A model generated the notes under the pieces. That model did no database searches. It was not told the origin of the DNA and was given only the letters and a program-made list of their open reading frames with translations. From Balneola sp. EhC07 (GTDB taxonomy: Bacteria > Bacteroidota > Rhodothermia > Balneolales > Balneolaceae): 64,000 nucleotides of DNA. The DNA lies in the NCBI RefSeq assembly GCF_001650905.1, contig NZ_LXYG01000017.1, positions 1 through 64,000 on the forward strand, given 5' to 3'. A program made the position numbers and the translations under genes. Positions 15,485 to 30,304 of this stretch are shown here, one piece after another; position 1 is the stretch's first letter, and every line of letters begins with the position of its first letter.

Positions 15485-16075
15485 CTATATGATATTTAGT
15501 ACGACTTCATCCAACCTCTCCTGATTCTGCGCCAAATAATGAAGGGTAGTCACTGGGTCTTTATGTCCCATAACAAACTGAGTAGCCACAATATCATTTC
15601 CGGAGGAACGATACACTTTTTCACAAAATGTCTTTCTCAATGAGTGAGTAGAAACGTTTTCATAGATTCCATTTTCGATAAAGGCATTCTTAAGAATTCT
15701 CCAAGCTTGAACAGATGAGATAGGATTATTTACCCCCTTCCTGGATTGAAAAGCGTAACAAGTTAGATTGAAGTGACCCTTTGATAATAATACTTCCCTA
15801 TAACTTTCAAGCACCTCTTTCAATTTAGGATGTATAGGAATTGCTCTTGGATTTTTGCCACCCTTCATATTTTTTGGCTTGATGTAAATTCTTTCATTTA
15901 CCTCGCCATTCGGCGCATAAAGATCTGACAGCTTCAAGCTGAGCACCTCCCTGATACGATATCCCGCCCACCTCTGAATGGAAAACATTGCTAAGTTTCG
16001 AAGTTTCTTCCTTTTTGAGAAGTAAGATTCTATCAATTCATACTCTTCATCAGTTAACTTTCTCATACCTGCCAT
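15485..16075 (-). CDS. Short tyrosine recombinase (phage integrase family)
   Basis: 196 residues, essentially only the catalytic domain. The active-site set is complete: R40 (AGYRIREVLSL), a Lys in the beta-hairpin near 68-74, H144 and R147 (HSLR), H171 (GHKD) and Y180 (LHYL). The N-terminal core-binding domain of full integrases (about 100 residues) is absent, so it may act with a partner or on short sites. A decayed copy lies at 10853-11058, on the other side of the ABC operon. It may have moved the 10.8-16.1 kb block or the defence island to its right. Confidence 0.85.
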   Translation of the reverse strand: MAGMRKLTDEEYELIESYFSKRKKLRNLAMFSIQRWAGYRIREVLSLKLSDLYAPNGEVNERIYIKPKNMKGGKNPRAIPIHPKLKEVLESYREVLLSKGHFNLTCYAFQSRKGVNNPISSVQAWRILKNAFIENGIYENVSTHSLRKTFCEKVYRSSGNDIVATQFVMGHKDPVTTLHYLAQNQERLDEVVLNII

Positions 16076-18590: not shown

Positions 18591-19490
18591 TTAGCTCATA
18601 TTATAACTCATAAGAATCAGGTCTTCAGCTTTTCGAAGATCATCGTGCGAACGAATTGTTATTTCTAAATCACCAGTACCCAAGTGACCTATATTTCGAA
18701 CATCCCTGGTAAACCCCTCTTCTAATTCAATGTCATCCGGACTTACTTTCACATTTAATAAAAGCTTGTTGCTTTGAGTATATATTTCAACACAGGCAAA
18801 GTTTTTTATTCGCTTGAAAGCAAAGTAATATTTAAGGGTTTTCTCCTGAACATCATCTCCTAGAGATAACATGTAGCTACGTAAGTCTGCATAAAGATTT
18901 GTTAGTTCCTCGCTCGCATCTTCCAAATAACTTGATACTGTTTTATAATTAGCTTTTGTTGATGACGGAGAGGCTGATGATTTCGCTTCAGCTATATTTA
19001 CAAGTTCTAAAAGCAGCAGATTGTCTTCAAACTTGATGTATCTAATTAATTCAATATTTCGGTTCATTTGCTTTACAGCATGTTCATCAAATTTTGTGAA
19101 CGCACCTGCAATGCATAACAACCGCGGGTTATTCCAGTCAATACTGTCAGAGTGATCCTTACCAAATTTCTTTAAAACAAGGAGTTCAAACTCTGCCTGA
19201 TGATCCATTAGCCAATCCAAATAAAATAGCCCCTGATTGATTACATTTTCATCTCTGTGGCGTTTGTACTCTATAATTACCGGACTGCCATTCTCATCAA
19301 TCCCTAAAGTATCTATTCTACCACCGTGATTAACACCGGTTGAATATTCTGTTTCCAGAAATCTTACACCTAGGTAATCTTCTAAATTTAATTCAATTTG
19401 AGACTGAAGACTTTTTTCAATGTTTGCAGTACCACCTGTGAGCTCAGTTACTTTGTTATCGTTTATACGAAAAAGTTTTATGTCTGACAT
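18591..19490 (-). CDS. NucS-like PD-(D/E)XK nuclease with C-terminal DUF5655-like domain
   Basis: 299 residues. The nuclease core is visible: GRID60 followed by VIIE74-Y-K76, with a Q shortly after (VINQGLFYLDWL), as in the NucS/EndoMS fold. The C-terminal 100 residues (VQEKTLKYYFAFKRIKNFACVEI, then DDIELEEGFTRDVRNIGHLGTGDLEI) resemble DUF5655, often found with such nucleases. A role in cleaving mismatched or foreign DNA is inferred. It converges with the HEPN gene (8 bases between stops). NucS of actinobacteria lacks this C-terminal domain. Confidence 0.7.
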   Translation of the reverse strand: MSDIKLFRINDNKVTELTGGTANIEKSLQSQIELNLEDYLGVRFLETEYSTGVNHGGRIDTLGIDENGSPVIIEYKRHRDENVINQGLFYLDWLMDHQAEFELLVLKKFGKDHSDSIDWNNPRLLCIAGAFTKFDEHAVKQMNRNIELIRYIKFEDNLLLLELVNIAEAKSSASPSSTKANYKTVSSYLEDASEELTNLYADLRSYMLSLGDDVQEKTLKYYFAFKRIKNFACVEIYTQSNKLLLNVKVSPDDIELEEGFTRDVRNIGHLGTGDLEITIRSHDDLRKAEDLILMSYNMS

Positions 19491-19565: not shown

Positions 19566-20510
19566 ATGATTGATTCTATACTTAGCATATTTTCGGATTA
19601 TATTGGCTCTTTTCTAAAAGGTGCTGTGAATCGTATTAGATTCTATTCGAATAAATTATTGAATCGCTCTGAACCTTACACCAAAGATGAAGCTTTGGAA
19701 TATGCCTATGCAGTGATTTCCGGAAACATAGTTCAAGTAAGTTCATTCAGAAATTTTTCTACTGGTAATATCTACATTGCTGTAAAAGCTAAAGAGAAGA
19801 AAGGCGAGTATTTTTTCAAATTAATCCTTCTTAAAAAAGTTGGAAGTACATTTATAAGAGATTGGGAGCACGAACTAATAAGCTTTACTGAAGACTTTGA
19901 AGTCATTGACCTGCAAAAATCTGGAGAATATTTTATACTGTTTATAGAAAACTCGTTTGGCTCAGGCGCTGGAACAAAGACCCTATACGCTTTTAGCTCT
20001 TCTACTAAAAAATTATTTAAAATCATTGAACATCACGATTGGTCGGATATGACTCGAGTATATACCCCGTCTATTGAACTGAGTCCACGGGATGTCGATC
20101 AAAAACTACTGAAAAATTTGGAGCAGTATGCTTCAATGAATGACATGTTAAAAGAAATGCGCGTCGACTTCTCCAACCCTAAACATGCCGTACGAAATTG
20201 GCATAGATTAAATGGTTCAATTACAGAAGGCGATGTAGAGCTTTGCTTTTACGATGGCCGTCCAACTTATGGGAGCTCTCCAACTGAAGTAGTACATTAT
20301 GATGACATTGAATGGATTGGGTATTTCAAAGGGCCACTCTGTGGTTATCTAAAAAAGAGGGATGAGCACTTTATCGCCTATTCTCCAGGCTGGACTTATG
20401 ATTGGCCACAGGACCTAAAAATGAAAGGTAATGGCATTCAATTTACTTCCGGTAAACATACACTATCTTTTGAATTGAACGGAAATAAAGGAAACTTAAA
20501 TAATATCTAG
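19566..20510 (+). CDS. Unknown protein translationally linked to patatin gene
   Basis: 314 residues, not recognised. It has an amphipathic N-terminus (MIDSILSIFSDYIGSFLKGAVN), a beta-rich middle with NSFGSGAGTKTLYAF, and a C-terminal part rich in aromatic residues (GYFKGPLCGYLKKRDEHF). It lacks the GS...DxD pattern of CD-NTases and the cyclase and TIR motifs, so no known signal-producing enzyme is seen. Its stop is one base before the TTG start of the patatin gene. That suggests obligate co-expression, for instance as sensor or inhibitor of the phospholipase. Confidence 0.7.
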   Translation: MIDSILSIFSDYIGSFLKGAVNRIRFYSNKLLNRSEPYTKDEALEYAYAVISGNIVQVSSFRNFSTGNIYIAVKAKEKKGEYFFKLILLKKVGSTFIRDWEHELISFTEDFEVIDLQKSGEYFILFIENSFGSGAGTKTLYAFSSSTKKLFKIIEHHDWSDMTRVYTPSIELSPRDVDQKLLKNLEQYASMNDMLKEMRVDFSNPKHAVRNWHRLNGSITEGDVELCFYDGRPTYGSSPTEVVHYDDIEWIGYFKGPLCGYLKKRDEHFIAYSPGWTYDWPQDLKMKGNGIQFTSGKHTLSFELNGNKGNLNNI

Positions 20511-20511
20511 T

Positions 20512-22026
20512 TTGTCTTTCTTCAAAAATATCGCATTATCCCTTTCGGGCGGTGGGTATAGAGCCGCCACCTATCATTTTGGTGTTCTATCTTGTCTTCA
20601 TAAAGTTGGTTTATTGGATAAAGTCTCAATGATATCGTCTGTATCTGGAGGAAGCATTACTACATTAAAATATGCAAGTACCTTAGCAGAAGGTTTGGAT
20701 TTCGAAAGCTTTTCAAAGGAATTAGAAGAGTTTTTAACTGAACGTAATTTAGTGAATGATGCAATTGGATTATTAGGAACTCCTACTTCTAAACGAATGC
20801 TCCAAAAGCATACGTTAATCAGTGCGTTTAGCGAGCTATACCATCGATATTTATTTAGCAAAGGATCAAAAAAGTTCAATGTTTTTTGGAATAGCAATTT
20901 TAAAAACTGCCATGTAAAAGAATTAGCTATCAATGCTACTGAATTTTATAGTGGTAATAGTTTTCGTTTTACTAAGAGTCAAAGCAAGGGTGCAATAATC
21001 GGTAATAAACACCTCAGAATTTATTATTCAGATGCTCAAAAACTTAGACTTGGCGATATATTAGCTGCATCCTCTTGTTTCCCAGCAGGTTTTGAACCCA
21101 TTGACCTTTTGAACGATTTTGTGATTTCAAAACCCTTAGATAGAGACTATAAAAATCTATGGCAGGTTGAATCACTATACCTTATGGACGGGGGTATTTA
21201 TGACAACCAAGGACTTGAAGCCATAAAACTTTCAATTGATCGGGGAAACTGGTATGACATGATTATTATTTCGGATACTGACAGGGATAAAGAATATCCG
21301 TTATATGCACCTTCAAATAACTCTATTAAATTTCCAAAATGGACTCTTAAAAAAACTCTCTCAATTATATTGCGGCTTCTGGTACTAATCTATTTTCTAA
21401 TTGTAATAGGTGCTTCAACAATTTTAAATTTGTTACTCCCACTTGATCTCATTATTGGATCTTTTTTATTAATCTCTATCGGACTTTTCTCAGGTTTAAA
21501 ACAAACCAAAAAAATCATTAAACAGCATATTAATAGGAAATTAACAAAGCAATTTAGTCAACCTTTAGATTTAGAGAAGCTTTCATTACTAAAGGTTTTC
21601 AGTATAATTGATTCTATTTATATAAGAGCTCACTCCTTAGTCTCCCTTACGAATACCATTTTTATGAAGCGTATTCGGTCTTTAGTATATACTAGCACCT
21701 ACGAAGCGCCGGGGCTTGGGAGAAGAACTGTTGATAATTTAATCTATAGCATTAATGACACTGCAATAATTGATGGTTTTCATATCACCGATTTAATGTT
21801 AAAAAAGGTTGATACAGCCAAGTCAATGTCTACAACTCTCTGGTTTACTGATGATGATCAAACTCAATACAACGCACTAAAAGATACTGGTGAATTTACT
21901 ACTGCATATAAACTAATAAAACATATCGATAAAATATCAATTAGACTTGGTAAGTCTAAAAAAAAGGAGTTAGATCAAATTAGAAATAAACTTTTCACAA
22001 TCTGGCTTTCACATTGCAAACAATAA
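20512..22026 (+). CDS. Patatin-like phospholipase with internal membrane hairpin
   Basis: 504 residues, TTG start (no ATG fits before the first motif). Patatin motifs: oxyanion loop SGGGYRAA (12-19), nucleophile elbow S-V-S45-G-G-S, AASSCFPAGFEP, and the dyad aspartate D226 in MDGGIYDNQG. Two hydrophobic helices (about 283-305 and 309-328) follow the catalytic part and would anchor it in the membrane. A C-terminal region of about 150 residues follows. Bacterial patatins such as CapV are effectors of abortive-infection systems that destroy the inner membrane. The location in a defence island fits, but no CD-NTase is nearby. Confidence 0.8.
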   Translation: MSFFKNIALSLSGGGYRAATYHFGVLSCLHKVGLLDKVSMISSVSGGSITTLKYASTLAEGLDFESFSKELEEFLTERNLVNDAIGLLGTPTSKRMLQKHTLISAFSELYHRYLFSKGSKKFNVFWNSNFKNCHVKELAINATEFYSGNSFRFTKSQSKGAIIGNKHLRIYYSDAQKLRLGDILAASSCFPAGFEPIDLLNDFVISKPLDRDYKNLWQVESLYLMDGGIYDNQGLEAIKLSIDRGNWYDMIIISDTDRDKEYPLYAPSNNSIKFPKWTLKKTLSIILRLLVLIYFLIVIGASTILNLLLPLDLIIGSFLLISIGLFSGLKQTKKIIKQHINRKLTKQFSQPLDLEKLSLLKVFSIIDSIYIRAHSLVSLTNTIFMKRIRSLVYTSTYEAPGLGRRTVDNLIYSINDTAIIDGFHITDLMLKKVDTAKSMSTTLWFTDDDQTQYNALKDTGEFTTAYKLIKHIDKISIRLGKSKKKELDQIRNKLFTIWLSHCKQ

Positions 22027-22030
22027 GATC

Positions 22031-23125
22031 TTAATTATTGCTTTGTCTTAAAAAGTTTTGATATAATGAAGTTAAATATGCATCCGAAGCATCATTGATC
22101 AAGTAATTAATGAAAGCTACATAAACTACGGCTCCTGGGCTTTTCTTTAATTTAAACATTGTGTCCCTCCAATCTTCCAAATTTACTCTTAATTCAGTAA
22201 TTGATTGTGCATGAGTTCGGAGCCTATCATTGTCTATATAACTTCTATAATAATCTTCCCATAAATCATTTAGTATTAATTGTTCTAGATAGTCTTTGTA
22301 CCTCACTTTCAGATTTAGAACTGAAAGCCAGTTGATTACAAGATCCTTTTGAGTCGGATCTTTTGGAATAACATTAAAATTCCAATCCTCTTCTTTTATC
22401 CGAACCTTTAGGTTTGGCTCATTTACATAAGAAAAGGATATATCTACTCCTGAATGAATTTGAAAAGGATAAAATGCCTTAACTCTTAATTGTGAACTAT
22501 CTATTAAAATATTCTTCTCCCCCTTTGCTGGACTATTATTACATGATGGACAAATAGGGACAAGGTTATTAAAATTTACGGCAGCCATTGGAAAGTCCTT
22601 TTTACACAACCAATGATCCAAAGGAAGTCGTGCTTGCCCTCTTAAATTGTTGATAGTTTCAATACCGCAAAATGGACAGACCTCAATACCATTTTCTTTT
22701 TTAAAGCGGTTTATTAAATCAAATACGTTTTCTTCTACTAGATCATTAAAACGGTCATAATTAATTGCACTTTTATAAAGGTACAAAAATAGGGTTTTTA
22801 TTGGCTCTTGAATTCTTTTAGGCAAATCATCTATGGAAACAATCTTTGAAGCAGGGTCATTGTCACACAATTTTTCAATCTGATTATTATATAGGAAGGT
22901 TTCTCGGATTAGCTTCCTAGTGGTGACAGACTTATAGGTCTTATACTTGTCATAAACGGTCTCAAACTTATTTTTTAAATCAGTAGGTGCAAAAACTGTA
23001 TTAGCCCATGTTGGGAATAAATGATCACCAAATTGAGCCGAATTTTCAATATTTCTAAAAAAGATCTTCGGTATCTGATTTATTACTGAAATCCGGGTTT
23101 TAGTTTTCTGAAGCTGTACTATCAT
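22031..23125 (-). CDS. HNH endonuclease (PtuB-like)
   Basis: 364 residues. The HNH core has zinc knuckles C150-P-F-C153 and C192-P-S-C195 around LPLDH171W, then N residues in VNFNNLVPICPSC and the K-G-E-K-N end. That is the layout of HNH nucleases coupled to ATPases in Septu and retron systems. It is longer than typical PtuB (about 200-250 residues), with an extra 140 residues on each side. The start overlaps the AAA ATPase gene by 26 bases. It is the last gene of the hsdM-hsdS-AAA-HNH operon and converges with the patatin gene. Confidence 0.8.
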   Translation of the reverse strand: MIVQLQKTKTRISVINQIPKIFFRNIENSAQFGDHLFPTWANTVFAPTDLKNKFETVYDKYKTYKSVTTRKLIRETFLYNNQIEKLCDNDPASKIVSIDDLPKRIQEPIKTLFLYLYKSAINYDRFNDLVEENVFDLINRFKKENGIEVCPFCGIETINNLRGQARLPLDHWLCKKDFPMAAVNFNNLVPICPSCNNSPAKGEKNILIDSSQLRVKAFYPFQIHSGVDISFSYVNEPNLKVRIKEEDWNFNVIPKDPTQKDLVINWLSVLNLKVRYKDYLEQLILNDLWEDYYRSYIDNDRLRTHAQSITELRVNLEDWRDTMFKLKKSPGAVVYVAFINYLINDASDAYLTSLYQNFLRQSNN

Positions 23126-24854
23126 TATCCATTTCTTCAGTTAATTCATAAATTCTTCTAAACAAAAATTGCTTCTCACTAGATTCTCCAAAGTACTCAA
23201 CAGCTTCCCTTAGTTCTTCCAAGCTTCCATTTTCTATAAGGTCAATAAGCTCATCTTTTGATTTTTTAGGAATAAGGTCAGTATTAAAGAAATTTTTCAA
23301 TATATAATTGATACTCGAGCCAAACGTTTTTAAACCCAACTCGCTTGCGGATTTCGCTACACTGAACTTTGAATCATCCTTTTTGTCAAAGAAGATCACA
23401 TTATTAGGTAAACAGTCAGATATAATAAAAGGTGAATGAGAAGTAAGAAGAATATCCTTCATCAAATGATCTGCACCACTTTCTTCTAGACTATTCTCAA
23501 GCATATCTATAAACCTACTTCTCCAATCTGGATTAAAATGTGTTTCGGGTTCATCTAATAAAATTAAAGACCGCTTATCTTTCAGGATCAAACAAATACC
23601 CATCGTATGGAGAAATTGGTGCTCTCCATCTGAGAATTGTTTTAAAAGCAGCTCAAAAGTCTCCTCAGAGTTAATTTTCCTTTTCTCAATGTAGAAATCT
23701 TCAAAAAAGAATACTTTATCAGCTGGCCCCGGAATAGGTAATTTACCGTCAGTATAATAGCCTGCCGATTTATATACCTCTTCCTTTATTCCTCCCCTAA
23801 TATTTGCTACCTCGATAAAATTATTATTCAGCTCGTAAAGCAACTGGAAAAACTGAAACATATCTAATGAGGATTTAAATACATTTCTGAAAGCAGCTTT
23901 CATTTGATTATCAAGAAAGAAGTCCAGCGTGAGTTTGTAATACTCTCTTGATTCTTCCATCTCTTCATCTTTCTCAAATTTATGAAAGAAGTGAGCTGTT
24001 GAAATCTTCTTTAGAGCTTCAATTTTATTATTTAATTGATGGATTACTGGATATTTCTTGACTTGGTTTTTCTCTAAAACCTTAAGTATGTGGTTTTGAA
24101 GAGTTATTCGAAAGCTTCGAAGTCGAACGATATTAAGCTCTTCTTTAAGACTTTTTAGTGTCTGATCACTTTCGAAAATAAGACTTGAAAGAAGTACCGC
24201 TTGACTCATTTCATTATCAATATACACCAAACTACTTTCTGGCTTTTCAAAGCGTTCGTTTCTTACAGTTGATTGTGCATATTCGTCATAATGAATTAAC
24301 CTCGATTTTATAAAGGGAATACTTAGGGTTTCATTCTCTCCAGATGAGTACCCTACAATAACATCTGGCAAATAAATTTTACCTGGAGCCGCTTTATCAA
24401 AACTAGTTGCTACAATTTGAATTTCTTGATCTATAGCATCGGGAGAAAATAAGTCCCTTTTAAGATACATCTTAGGTTCTTTACCTTCTTTCTTAACAAT
24501 CCGAATAATATTTAACCCATCTAATACATCCTTCAAATCTTCTTTGAAGATGATATATTCTAATTCAAAAGCATGCGGTCCATTTATATTCGTACCGGGA
24601 GAGAAAAATTCAAATGCATCGGGTTTAAATCTATTTGCGCATAGTTCCAGATGGTAAAAAATATTTGCTAAGGCCTCTAACACATTAGACTTTCCACTCC
24701 CATTCAACCCAGCAAAACAGAATGGTTCAAACTTTTTTAACGTTCTGATTTCGTTTAAAAACTCCTCTTTTAAAAATGTTGGCCGAAAGTTTAATTCAAA
24801 ACCAGTTTTTAAGCTTCTGAAGTCTGAGTTTATTTTGAGTCGAAGAAGTTTCAT
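23100..24854 (-). CDS. Restriction-system-associated AAA/ABC-type ATPase (PtuA-like)
   Basis: 584 residues. Walker A GLNGSGKS (49-56), ABC-like signature FSDGEHQF (407-414), Walker B LILLDEPETHF (430-440) and the H-loop TSHSP (471-475) define an SMC/OLD-like ATPase. The middle (about 230-345) is helical. Such ATPases pair with an HNH nuclease as PtuA does with PtuB in Septu, and relatives are known beside type I modification genes. It overlaps hsdS by 4 bases (ATGA) and the HNH gene by 26. It lacks a TOPRIM domain, so it is not an OLD nuclease. Confidence 0.82.
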   Translation of the reverse strand: MKLLRLKINSDFRSLKTGFELNFRPTFLKEEFLNEIRTLKKFEPFCFAGLNGSGKSNVLEALANIFYHLELCANRFKPDAFEFFSPGTNINGPHAFELEYIIFKEDLKDVLDGLNIIRIVKKEGKEPKMYLKRDLFSPDAIDQEIQIVATSFDKAAPGKIYLPDVIVGYSSGENETLSIPFIKSRLIHYDEYAQSTVRNERFEKPESSLVYIDNEMSQAVLLSSLIFESDQTLKSLKEELNIVRLRSFRITLQNHILKVLEKNQVKKYPVIHQLNNKIEALKKISTAHFFHKFEKDEEMEESREYYKLTLDFFLDNQMKAAFRNVFKSSLDMFQFFQLLYELNNNFIEVANIRGGIKEEVYKSAGYYTDGKLPIPGPADKVFFFEDFYIEKRKINSEETFELLLKQFSDGEHQFLHTMGICLILKDKRSLILLDEPETHFNPDWRSRFIDMLENSLEESGADHLMKDILLTSHSPFIISDCLPNNVIFFDKKDDSKFSVAKSASELGLKTFGSSINYILKNFFNTDLIPKKSKDELIDLIENGSLEELREAVEYFGESSEKQFLFRRIYELTEEMDNDSTASEN

Positions 24855-26314
24855 TTCATTTGTAGGATCGTTTGTTTGTTTTCCTCATCGTATTTCTGTT
24901 CTACCTTTTCAGCTTTCATTAACTTGAATAAAATTTCTTTCGCTTCTTCATATTCTTCAAAGGTGCCGAACGAGAAAGAGTCTCCTTCATCATTCATAAA
25001 CTCTTCTTTCTGATTGTGCTGATTAAATCGATCAACCAATTTTTGAATGAGTGATACATCATCATTAATAGCTTCCACATCATTATTCTCAATAAGTGCG
25101 TCTAGCTGTAGTTCGGATTGAAAAGATAGATCTCCATGAAAGGCTCTTTGAAGAAGAGAATTAAAAAGGTTTTCAGCATTAGCTAAAGAAGAGTTAAGTT
25201 TTAATCTTGTTTTCTCAACTTTATATACTAGAGTATCAAACTCTTTTTGAGCATTCAATTCTGGTAATGGGATTTCAAGTTCACGGAGTCTTGACTTAGA
25301 GATATTTGGCATTGAACCGGCTGCACCTCCTCGAAGATTTTGCACTTCTTTTCTAAAATTTGAATCATTAAACAAATAATATAGATAGAGGCCCGTGACT
25401 TTGGATGGGTTGAAAACTAATTTAAAAATCGTATCTGGCAATATTAACTTTTTATGATCATTGAAAACATATGCTGTTGTACCAACTAATTCTGGGGTAT
25501 TTTTTCTAGAAAAAAGTACATCACCTTTAGTAGCTGTAACATCTTTTTGGATACTTTTTCCCTCTGGTAATTTTTTGTTTTCTTCAGCAATAAACTTTCG
25601 TTTTGAGACAGCTCCTTGCTTAAGTACAGCCCATTCATTTTCATTATTTCGAGAATATTTTTCGCATCTAGGACTCCAACCAGATTCAATTTCATCAAGC
25701 ACTGAACTCAACGGAACTTTTACCCACCCCTTACTTTCAAATACAGGATCCCCAAACATATTCAAAAAAGTGTCTCGAAGTAGCTTATTCAACAACTCAA
25801 TACTTTCCTTCCGTTTATCAATTAGAGATTGAGCTCGATCTAAAGCTTCTACAATTTGTTGTTGTGTTTGAAGATCTGGAAGCTCTACCTCTTGTTTTTT
25901 GACAATAGTTGCTGAAATATTATTGAGCGTAACTCCTCTTCCTTGATTAACTAACTTTTCTTTATTGAACTCAAACCAATACCTAAGATACTCTAAGTTT
26001 AATAAGTCTTCTTTTTTGGCTGTTATACCAAGTATAGCTTGGTTCGAAGATAATTCAGTTCCCGCAAAAGCTGTTTTCCCAACAGAACCATACATTGCTA
26101 ACAACAATGTGCCTTTTTTAAAAAGTCGATTATTTATTGAATTTAGTCCCTTCTCAGTCAAATATTCTTCTGTTTTATGAATAATTGACCCTTTTGTTCG
26201 ATCAAAATCGCCAATTTTCACCCAAGGGATAGTACCTCCATAGAATGATGGCTCACTTCTTCTTGGAGTTCCACCACTTTTCATTTCACAAATTTCTGAG
26301 AGAAGGTATTTCAT
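24851..26314 (-). CDS. hsdS: Type I restriction-modification specificity subunit
   Basis: 487 residues. Two target recognition domains are visible. The first starts MKYLLSEICEMKSGGTPRR and includes IPWVKIGD and LLLAMYGSVGKTA; the second starts WVKVPLSSVLDEIESG and includes DVLFSRKNTPELVG and PNISKSRLRELEIPLP. Each is followed by a spacer helix (QQQIVEALDRAQSLIDKRKE and QKEFDTLVYKVEKTR). A charged tail of about 70 residues extends beyond the usual end. It would give HsdM its two-part DNA target. It overlaps hsdM and the ATPase gene by 4 bases each. Confidence 0.92.
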   Translation of the reverse strand: MKYLLSEICEMKSGGTPRRSEPSFYGGTIPWVKIGDFDRTKGSIIHKTEEYLTEKGLNSINNRLFKKGTLLLAMYGSVGKTAFAGTELSSNQAILGITAKKEDLLNLEYLRYWFEFNKEKLVNQGRGVTLNNISATIVKKQEVELPDLQTQQQIVEALDRAQSLIDKRKESIELLNKLLRDTFLNMFGDPVFESKGWVKVPLSSVLDEIESGWSPRCEKYSRNNENEWAVLKQGAVSKRKFIAEENKKLPEGKSIQKDVTATKGDVLFSRKNTPELVGTTAYVFNDHKKLILPDTIFKLVFNPSKVTGLYLYYLFNDSNFRKEVQNLRGGAAGSMPNISKSRLRELEIPLPELNAQKEFDTLVYKVEKTRLKLNSSLANAENLFNSLLQRAFHGDLSFQSELQLDALIENNDVEAINDDVSLIQKLVDRFNQHNQKEEFMNDEGDSFSFGTFEEYEEAKEILFKLMKAEKVEQKYDEENKQTILQMK

Positions 26315-27894
26315 CCTACCAAATTCCTTAATTCTTCCATTTCTTTTAGAATTTGATTTTCTAGAGCCATCAACGACTCTAAAATCTCTTTAGGTGAATC
26401 ATAATCTTGCTCCTCATATACAAATTCTTTGTATCGATTAAAACTTAAGTCGTAATCATTCTTTTGAATTTCTTCTAATCGTACAAAAAAGTGTTGCCCC
26501 TTTCTTTCGTTCTCCGAACTTTTTTCTTCTCTTTCTTCCCAATCAGTTACAGCTTGAGGTAATGGGCTATCTTTCAATCTTCGCCTGTTATCATCAAGCG
26601 AATAACCGTCACTTTTTAGCTCATAAAACCACACCTTCTCTGTATGAAACTCATTTGAATCCTGCTGAGCTTTTGTAAAGACCAATATAGCCGTTTTAAC
26701 ACCTGTATATGGTTTAAATACGCCACTTGGAAGAGAAATAACTGCTTCCAATTGACAGTCTTTGGCCATAATTTCACGAAGCTGTCTATTTGCTTTCGAT
26801 GAACCAAAAAGTACCCCTTCAGGAATTATTACTCCCCCTTTTCCTCCAGGTTGGAGCATTTTAATAATTCGTTCAAGAAAAAGTAATTCCGTAGAATTCG
26901 AAGAAATACGAAATTCATCACTTTTATCATTCTTCGAAATCTTCCCGGTAAAAGGAGGATTCGCTAATACCATAGAGAACTCACCTTCCTTATGATCGTC
27001 ATCGTACTTCTTTGAAAGTGTGTCCTGATTTTCAATATGTGGGTATGAAATACCATGAAGCATTAGGTTCATAAGTCCAATACGTACCATCCCCGAATCG
27101 ATATCATATCCATAAAAAGTTTCTTTCTTTAGTTGATTCCAGTGCTTTTCATCTTTGATTTTATTCCCTAATCCATTATAAAACCCATCATCATCTTTTA
27201 TTTTTTTCTTCTCCGAAGATTTTTTAGCTAAAATATACTGATACGCGGCAACCAAAAACCCTCCCGTTCCTGCAGCTGGATCACATATTTTATCGCCAAT
27301 ATCCGGATCTAATATCTCTACCAAAAAACGTATTAAATGTCTTGGTGTTCTGAATTGACCATTCTTTCCTGCATTCTTTAGTTCGCTGAGTAAATATTCA
27401 TACACATCTCCCTGTGTATCCTGAAAAGCTTGTCCAGCTTTTTTGTCATTCTCGATGTAATCAAATATTTCATCGATTGCTCGCATGGCATCTTCTAATA
27501 ACAATGCACTGGGCATAAAAAAGTTCGCAGATTGCATATGTCTTGCGTACGGAGAATTTTCCTCCTTTAAATCTTTGAGAAAAGGGAATACATATTGAGA
27601 AACATGGGTTAGCCTTTCCTCGGTTTCAAAGTCTTTAAACACTGTCCATCGCAACATCCTCTTTTCAACGGTAATAGAATCCCCCTCACTATCTTTTTTT
27701 CCCGTATCCCATGTACCTTCAAAAATTGACTTATAAGATGATCGTTTTGATTCTTCAGCATCCATTTGTTCTAACCTTCTCATAAACAATAGGTAAGAAA
27801 TGTGCTCTATTGCTTGTAAAGGATTTGCCATACCGCGTGACCAAAATTTATCCCACAAGTTGTCAATCTTTGATTTTAATTCTTTTGATAACAT
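26311..27894 (-). CDS. hsdM: Type I restriction-modification methyltransferase subunit
   Basis: 527 residues. The N-terminal HsdM_N helical domain (about 7-165) is followed by the N6-adenine methyltransferase core: motif I DPAAGTGGF (205-213) and motif IV NPPF (312-315). It methylates adenine within the target set by HsdS. It is the first gene of the operon, with a 237-base leader gap to the next gene on the right. No hsdR-like helicase/nuclease gene exists anywhere in the window, which is unusual unless the partner is encoded elsewhere. Confidence 0.95.
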   Translation of the reverse strand: MLSKELKSKIDNLWDKFWSRGMANPLQAIEHISYLLFMRRLEQMDAEESKRSSYKSIFEGTWDTGKKDSEGDSITVEKRMLRWTVFKDFETEERLTHVSQYVFPFLKDLKEENSPYARHMQSANFFMPSALLLEDAMRAIDEIFDYIENDKKAGQAFQDTQGDVYEYLLSELKNAGKNGQFRTPRHLIRFLVEILDPDIGDKICDPAAGTGGFLVAAYQYILAKKSSEKKKIKDDDGFYNGLGNKIKDEKHWNQLKKETFYGYDIDSGMVRIGLMNLMLHGISYPHIENQDTLSKKYDDDHKEGEFSMVLANPPFTGKISKNDKSDEFRISSNSTELLFLERIIKMLQPGGKGGVIIPEGVLFGSSKANRQLREIMAKDCQLEAVISLPSGVFKPYTGVKTAILVFTKAQQDSNEFHTEKVWFYELKSDGYSLDDNRRRLKDSPLPQAVTDWEEREEKSSENERKGQHFFVRLEEIQKNDYDLSFNRYKEFVYEEQDYDSPKEILESLMALENQILKEMEELRNLVG

Positions 27895-28132
27895 ATATTA
27901 ATAACTCTTTAGAGGAGGAGGTTCTCCTTATTCTTATTTACAAGTTCTTTTTTCTACTCTAGATTAGAGTGACTAAATAATTTATATCGTACTTAGCTGT
28001 TTCAATTGAAAATTTAGCTAATTATTTGTTAAATCATATATTCTTTGATTCTAGTCTAACTATATCACACAAGTAATTCAATTACAACAATTATCATACC
28101 CCTCTGCAAGAGGGTATTGTTCGAGATTTGTC

Positions 28133-30222: not shown

Positions 30223-30231
30223 AAGAATCTG

Positions 30232-30304
<73 letters not shown>

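Follow-up and report, generated by a model that had tools for sequence, protein, structure and literature searches.

An hsdR-less member of a type I restriction operon family in which HsdMS may gate a PtuAB-like ATPase/HNH pair

What a type I DNA methyltransferase and its specificity subunit do when they are joined to an ATPase and a nuclease, with no HsdR beside them, is the question raised by an operon of Balneola sp. EhC07. We analysed a stretch of 64,000 nucleotides (contig NZ_LXYG01000017.1, positions 1 to 64,000), herein termed the window, in which four overlapping minus-strand genes encode HsdM, HsdS, an ATPase and an HNH nuclease. The coordinates and family scans bear out the initial annotation, in that successive genes overlap by 4, 4 and 26 bases. 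The features are as follows.

26311..27894, minus strand: hsdM, type I N6-adenine methyltransferase, 527 aa, NPPF motif intact
24851..26314, minus strand: hsdS, specificity subunit, 487 aa, two target-recognition domains
24854..25096, minus strand: HsdS C-terminal extension, approximately residues 407-487, conserved only in ATPase/HNH-linked HsdS
23100..24854, minus strand: TIGR04435 ATPase, 584 aa, AAA_21/OLD-like ABC ATPase, PtuA-like
22031..23125, minus strand: HNH nuclease, 364 aa, CxxC / DH / N..NL / CxxCN motif
27895..28132, unstranded: upstream region, with a conserved 31-bp block at 28058-28088 and a palindrome at 28096-28117

HsdM matches N6_Mtase (227 bits) and HsdM_N, and HsdS contains two Methylase_S repeats, such that the motifs and the two target domains of a type I modification complex are all present. 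The identical gene order in some 80 relatives is far more than chance would be expected to produce, and the operon does not appear to be a fortuitous arrangement. The 31-bp block, which overlaps a putative promoter-like site, is kept in the 86% relative, Balneolaceae MAG ih13 (locus L026). The adjoining palindrome, ATACCCTCTTGCAGAGGGGTAT, is not conserved in L026 and may be a terminator or an operator.

The window had been described as lacking hsdR, and searches of the organism's own genome (3.62 Mb, 20 contigs) agree, placing hsdR only on contigs C14 and C16. The genome-wide search that the initial annotation had recommended thus did find two full-length hsdR genes, but each lies inside a complete hsdM-hsdS-hsdR operon and neither is of the cognate subtype. 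The HsdM proteins of C14 and C16 are only 25-28% identical to that of the window, versus about 50-83% for the HsdM of the closest ATPase/HNH operons elsewhere, and a cognate HsdR query (from locus L033) recovers only helicase-motif fragments of about 160-200 residues in this genome, the HsdR of C14 and C16 matching the cognate protein over no more than about 160-270 residues; hence we regard the matching subtype as absent. The HsdR that would complete a type I restriction system is therefore found neither in the locus nor, in cognate form, in the genome, and no hsdR relics were found in the window. A third helicase match, on contig C17 (L107:7152-10535), is of another helicase type, with no hsdM or hsdS among the surrounding open reading frames of at least 250 aa. 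Upstream of another restriction-modification operon of this genome (L005:961-4463) is a gene for a protein of 858 aa that matches an N6-methylase in part and, judged by eye, ends in a histidine-kinase-like ATPase; a gene for a 309-aa receiver-like protein adjoins it.

The ATPase family is sporadic: within the genus one genome in eight has it, and within the phylum seven of 394. Scanning 84,980 species genomes yielded more than 500 relatives, and the 80 best were retained; with four plasmid loci and other genomes added, 91 loci were tabulated and 86 entered a tree after repeats were removed. This is a sample of the closest relatives, biased to near kin, rather than a random one. The tabulation was another check that had been proposed: the order hsdM-hsdS-ATPase-HNH, with start/stop overlaps, is present in every intact locus with enough contig, and the form without hsdR recurs across phyla. 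Contig ends limit 18 loci. For the remaining 68 loci of the tree the presence of hsdR could be decided: it lies upstream in 48, always of a single subtype and in most cases directly, and is missing from the other 20, the window among them, over at least 3.5 kb read upstream. One clade that includes the window holds 16 loci without hsdR, three with it and three that are cut; outside it are 45 loci with hsdR and four without, two of these four on plasmids. The operons that lack hsdR span Bacteroidota, Balneolota, Ignavibacteriota and Campylobacterota, as well as plasmids of Priestia and Hymenobacter, and because they fill most of one multi-phylum clade, the four-gene form evidently persists without hsdR. 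Some relatives are broken: the Pectobacterium operon (L083) is fragmented and locus L062 lacks hsdM. Searches of viral contigs and phage records found no relative of the ATPase.

The pair had been proposed to stand in place of HsdR, and this part of the initial reading did not survive the comparison. Most relatives have hsdR as the first gene of the operon, and in locus L036 (5827-6940) a remnant of hsdR, its final 43 codons (88% identity to HsdR of locus L032), still lies just ahead of the four-gene unit; between this remnant and hsdM comes a YhcG (DUF1016, PDDEXK) nuclease gene that is unrelated; hsdR was therefore deleted there from a five-gene operon. The ATPase/HNH pair is hence a companion of HsdR and not its replacement. 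By gene order, the full form of the family is hsdR-hsdM-hsdS-ATPase-HNH, of which the window operon is an HsdR-less member, and the pair has, by the same comparison, outlived HsdR in some lineages. We also looked for a replacement gene where hsdR would lie, but the scanned upstream genes (SIR2, lectin-like, YhcG, Schlafen helicase, TonB receptor) bear no relation to one another. Among these neighborhoods, a SIR2-like gene abuts hsdM in one locus without hsdR (L055:3630-6782), and Schlafen group 3 helicase genes lie near two others (L017:3129-5012 and L064:5206-6978).

A physical link between the two halves of the operon is suggested by HsdS. In ATPase/HNH operons this subunit is longer than ordinary HsdS by a C-terminal extension of ~75 residues, with the pattern Y..AK..vF.LL..g...Q.fD.....I.L, which is present whether or not hsdR is and is absent from the HsdS of C14 and C16. 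A profile of this tail, searched against 394 genomes, gave seven matches at E≤5.1e-7 in the same seven genomes as the ATPase, each adjoining the ATPase gene, and three of these seven genomes had not contributed to the profile; four more matches at E 0.002-0.003 are at chance level. Since type I HsdS domains above cut-off occur in 280 of the 394 genomes and the tail in exactly those that bear the ATPase, the tail is the leading candidate for tethering HsdS to the ATPase or the HNH protein, one or other of which it would bind. In the predicted HsdS structure (pLDDT 87) the core matches solved HsdS structures, and the tail, predicted at lower confidence (49-85), consists of helices followed by a beta-hairpin that we read as a winged-helix-like fold. 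The conserved order and a tail found only with the pair uphold the earlier view that HsdMS and the ATPase/HNH proteins form one unit.

Comparison with L026 indicates how the operon has been maintained. Identities are 84% for HsdM, 86% for the ATPase, 78% for HNH and 45% for HsdS, and dN/dS is about 0.03, 0.05 and 0.12 for HsdM, the ATPase and HNH, respectively, the ratios for HsdM, HsdS and the ATPase being rough because dS is near saturation. On these values HsdM, the ATPase and HNH are under purifying selection. The divergence of HsdS is uneven, the first target domain falling to 15-22% identity in 40-residue blocks and the final 120 residues remaining at 72-77%. The target specificity has by this measure changed while the remainder of the operon was kept, a pattern that would fit selection on DNA specificity without HsdR and that neutral recombination without selection could also have caused.

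The ATPase has an AAA_21 match and belongs to NCBIfam TIGR04435 (530.6 bits against a cut-off of 300), with Walker A (GLNGSGKS), signature (FSDGEHQ) and Walker B (LLLDEPETHFN) motifs. The family name, 'restriction system-associated AAA family ATPase', carries no mechanism; NCBI annotates the family beside restriction genes. In E. coli the TIGR04435 operon has the five-gene R-M-S-ATPase-HNH form; 11 of 5,426 genomes carry it, and the copy examined sits on a conjugative element. In the window and most of its clade of relatives, by contrast, hsdR is missing. The nucleotide-binding part of the family profile matches the solved PtuA of retron Ec78 (E 1e-14) and of Septu (6e-10), and the window protein, which we count as PtuA-type, scores 177 bits with PADLOC PtuA1 but only 33 of 500 bits with NCBIfam PtuA. 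Two CxxC pairs, DH and N..NL are conserved in the HNH protein of nearly all relatives, and both this motif and the Walker motifs are retained with and without hsdR. The HNH protein has no Pfam match, its similarity to PtuB is confined to the HNH motif region (PADLOC E about 1e-5; NCBIfam PtuB 15.9 of 150 bits), and its model (pLDDT 91) matched nothing in the PDB at E≤0.001, in a library that may be without PtuB chains. The resemblance to PtuA/PtuB claimed at the outset therefore stands for the ATPase, and for the nuclease only around its motif.

Septu PtuA/PtuB and the PtuAB of retron Ec78/Eco7 are likewise encoded by neighboring ATPase and HNH genes, and from its sequences the window pair plausibly works like PtuAB. 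Septu is, however, a stand-alone two-gene system, whereas this pair always lies behind hsdM-hsdS in intact relatives and has a nuclease of 364 aa that is PtuB-like only near the motif; the pair is not Septu proper and the label holds only loosely. Both proteins match the A and B components of the two-gene PADLOC candidates PDC-M62 and PDC-M01 (HNH matching PDC-M62B/M01B), but these matches are weak and partial and the systems as listed lack hsdM and hsdS. PrrC/EcoPrrI and PARIS likewise tie an ABC-type ATPase and a nuclease to a restriction system or set them to guard it. They differ in having the PrrC anticodon nuclease or a TOPRIM nuclease where the window has HNH, and in that the window has no hsdR; here AAA_21 is the sole Pfam match of the ATPase above cut-off and the HNH protein is separate, unlike the ATPase with an anticodon-nuclease domain of PrrC/RloC. 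The methylation-associated defence system (MADS) we take to combine a methylase, a specificity subunit, an ATPase and effectors other than HsdR, as here, but scores against its curated cut-offs fall well short (MAD2 128/720, MAD5 48/400, MAD3 20/420).

The setting, at least in L026, is that of an integrated island. In L026 the operon travels with the same patatin gene, 314-aa gene and PDC-S18 as in the window, and the block adjoins tRNA-Phe and recJ. On the far side of the block (L026:761-20298) the 3' end of tRNA-Phe is repeated exactly over 51 bp, at 20236-20286, which marks an integrated island of about 19 kb. In the window a tRNA-Phe gene is next to the island (30231-30304); a second repeat was sought there and none was found. 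A short tyrosine integrase (196 aa, 15485-16075) lies near the far side. The patatin-like phospholipase gene adjoins the 314-aa gene (19566-22026), and both are kept beside the operon in L026 and have no PADLOC match; the patatin gene is much less diverged (dS 0.32) than its neighbors, as if exchanged later. PDC-S18 (18591-19490; 485 bits, NucS-like/DUF5655), a PADLOC candidate, is conserved in the L026 block.

We propose that HsdMS marks self DNA and gates the PtuAB-like effector without HsdR, the latter being a lost, separable arm, a reading to which we assign a probability of roughly 0.45. As their families suggest, HsdM and HsdS would together act as a type I methyltransferase and mark a bipartite site in host DNA, with the ATPase-HNH pair joined to this complex as effector, probably via the HsdS extension. 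On meeting, or being tied up on, unmodified foreign sites, HsdMS would cause the ATPase to release the HNH nuclease, which would cut either the DNA of the invader or, as the PtuAB studied do, tRNA of the host, and so stop the infection. HsdR would be a second, separable output arm, lost in the lineage of the window. The system would then probably tell self from foreign DNA by marks and strike with a weapon other than HsdR; in most relatives, where HsdR is present, the pair may be only a backup to it. The more specific proposal, that the HsdS C-terminal domain docks an OLD-type ATPase/HNH effector to give methylation-licensed immunity that needs no HsdR, we advance tentatively, at somewhat under even odds. 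For PtuAB of E. coli ATCC 25922, DNA cutting has been reported (cited in PMC11555353).

Two other explanations are improbable. HsdR sharing between type I loci is known from other bacteria, and the window HsdMS might work in trans with the full-length HsdR of C14 or C16, the pair being accessory. Two of the genomes with an HsdR-less operon carry an HsdR elsewhere, 34-35% identical, which counts against the gating proposal. We reject action in trans as a likely explanation because each HsdR here is encoded with an M and an S of its own and belongs to a different subtype, as the low HsdM identity and the short HsdR matches indicate, and consider it highly improbable. Scarcely more probable is a decaying locus, in which loss of hsdR left a lone methyltransferase beside an independent Septu-like toxin pair. 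The eroded hsdR of L036 and the broken loci L083 and L062 are what decay would produce, but in the window none of the four genes is disrupted and dN/dS is low, HsdR-less loci of several phyla retain the order and the overlaps, and the HsdS tail goes with the ATPase.

The main rival to gating by HsdMS is a guard arrangement of the PrrC or PARIS kind, which we consider rather unlikely but far stronger than the other two. Intact HsdMS(R) would hold the pair inactive and its inhibition or dismantling by a phage would release it, the cell being stopped by tRNA cutting, for example; the trigger would not involve methylation marks directly. The gene for PrrC lies within a type IC hsd locus, and inhibition of EcoPrrI activates the protein (PMC12707154), OLD-ABC/nuclease pairs are described as BREX backup effectors (PMC12839542), and PtuAB of Septu and retron-Eco7 cuts tRNA-Tyr (PMC13096335, PMC11555353). 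The co-occurrence of the pair with HsdR in most relatives and the dedicated tail of HsdS also accord with guarding. Without HsdR, however, a guard would have little left to protect, and many lineages nevertheless keep the operon; moreover, guarding does not require the turnover of target domains seen in two HsdR-less relatives.

The coupling of an ATPase/nuclease pair to a system of this sort is not in itself new, since work on BREX that notes OLD-ABC/HNH dyads refers to earlier reports of similar couplings in RM-like systems (PMC12839542); what is new in the present analysis is the HsdR-less form, its clade, the hsdR relic and the HsdS tail. If gating by HsdMS is correct, the type I recognition and marking complex would be a modular sensor able to drive an effector other than HsdR. 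The HsdS tail offers a concrete, testable interface, and the natural series of operons with and without hsdR allows the two outputs to be separated. Such a role would also account for the occurrence, in hundreds of restriction loci, of an ATPase family that has a name but no explanation.
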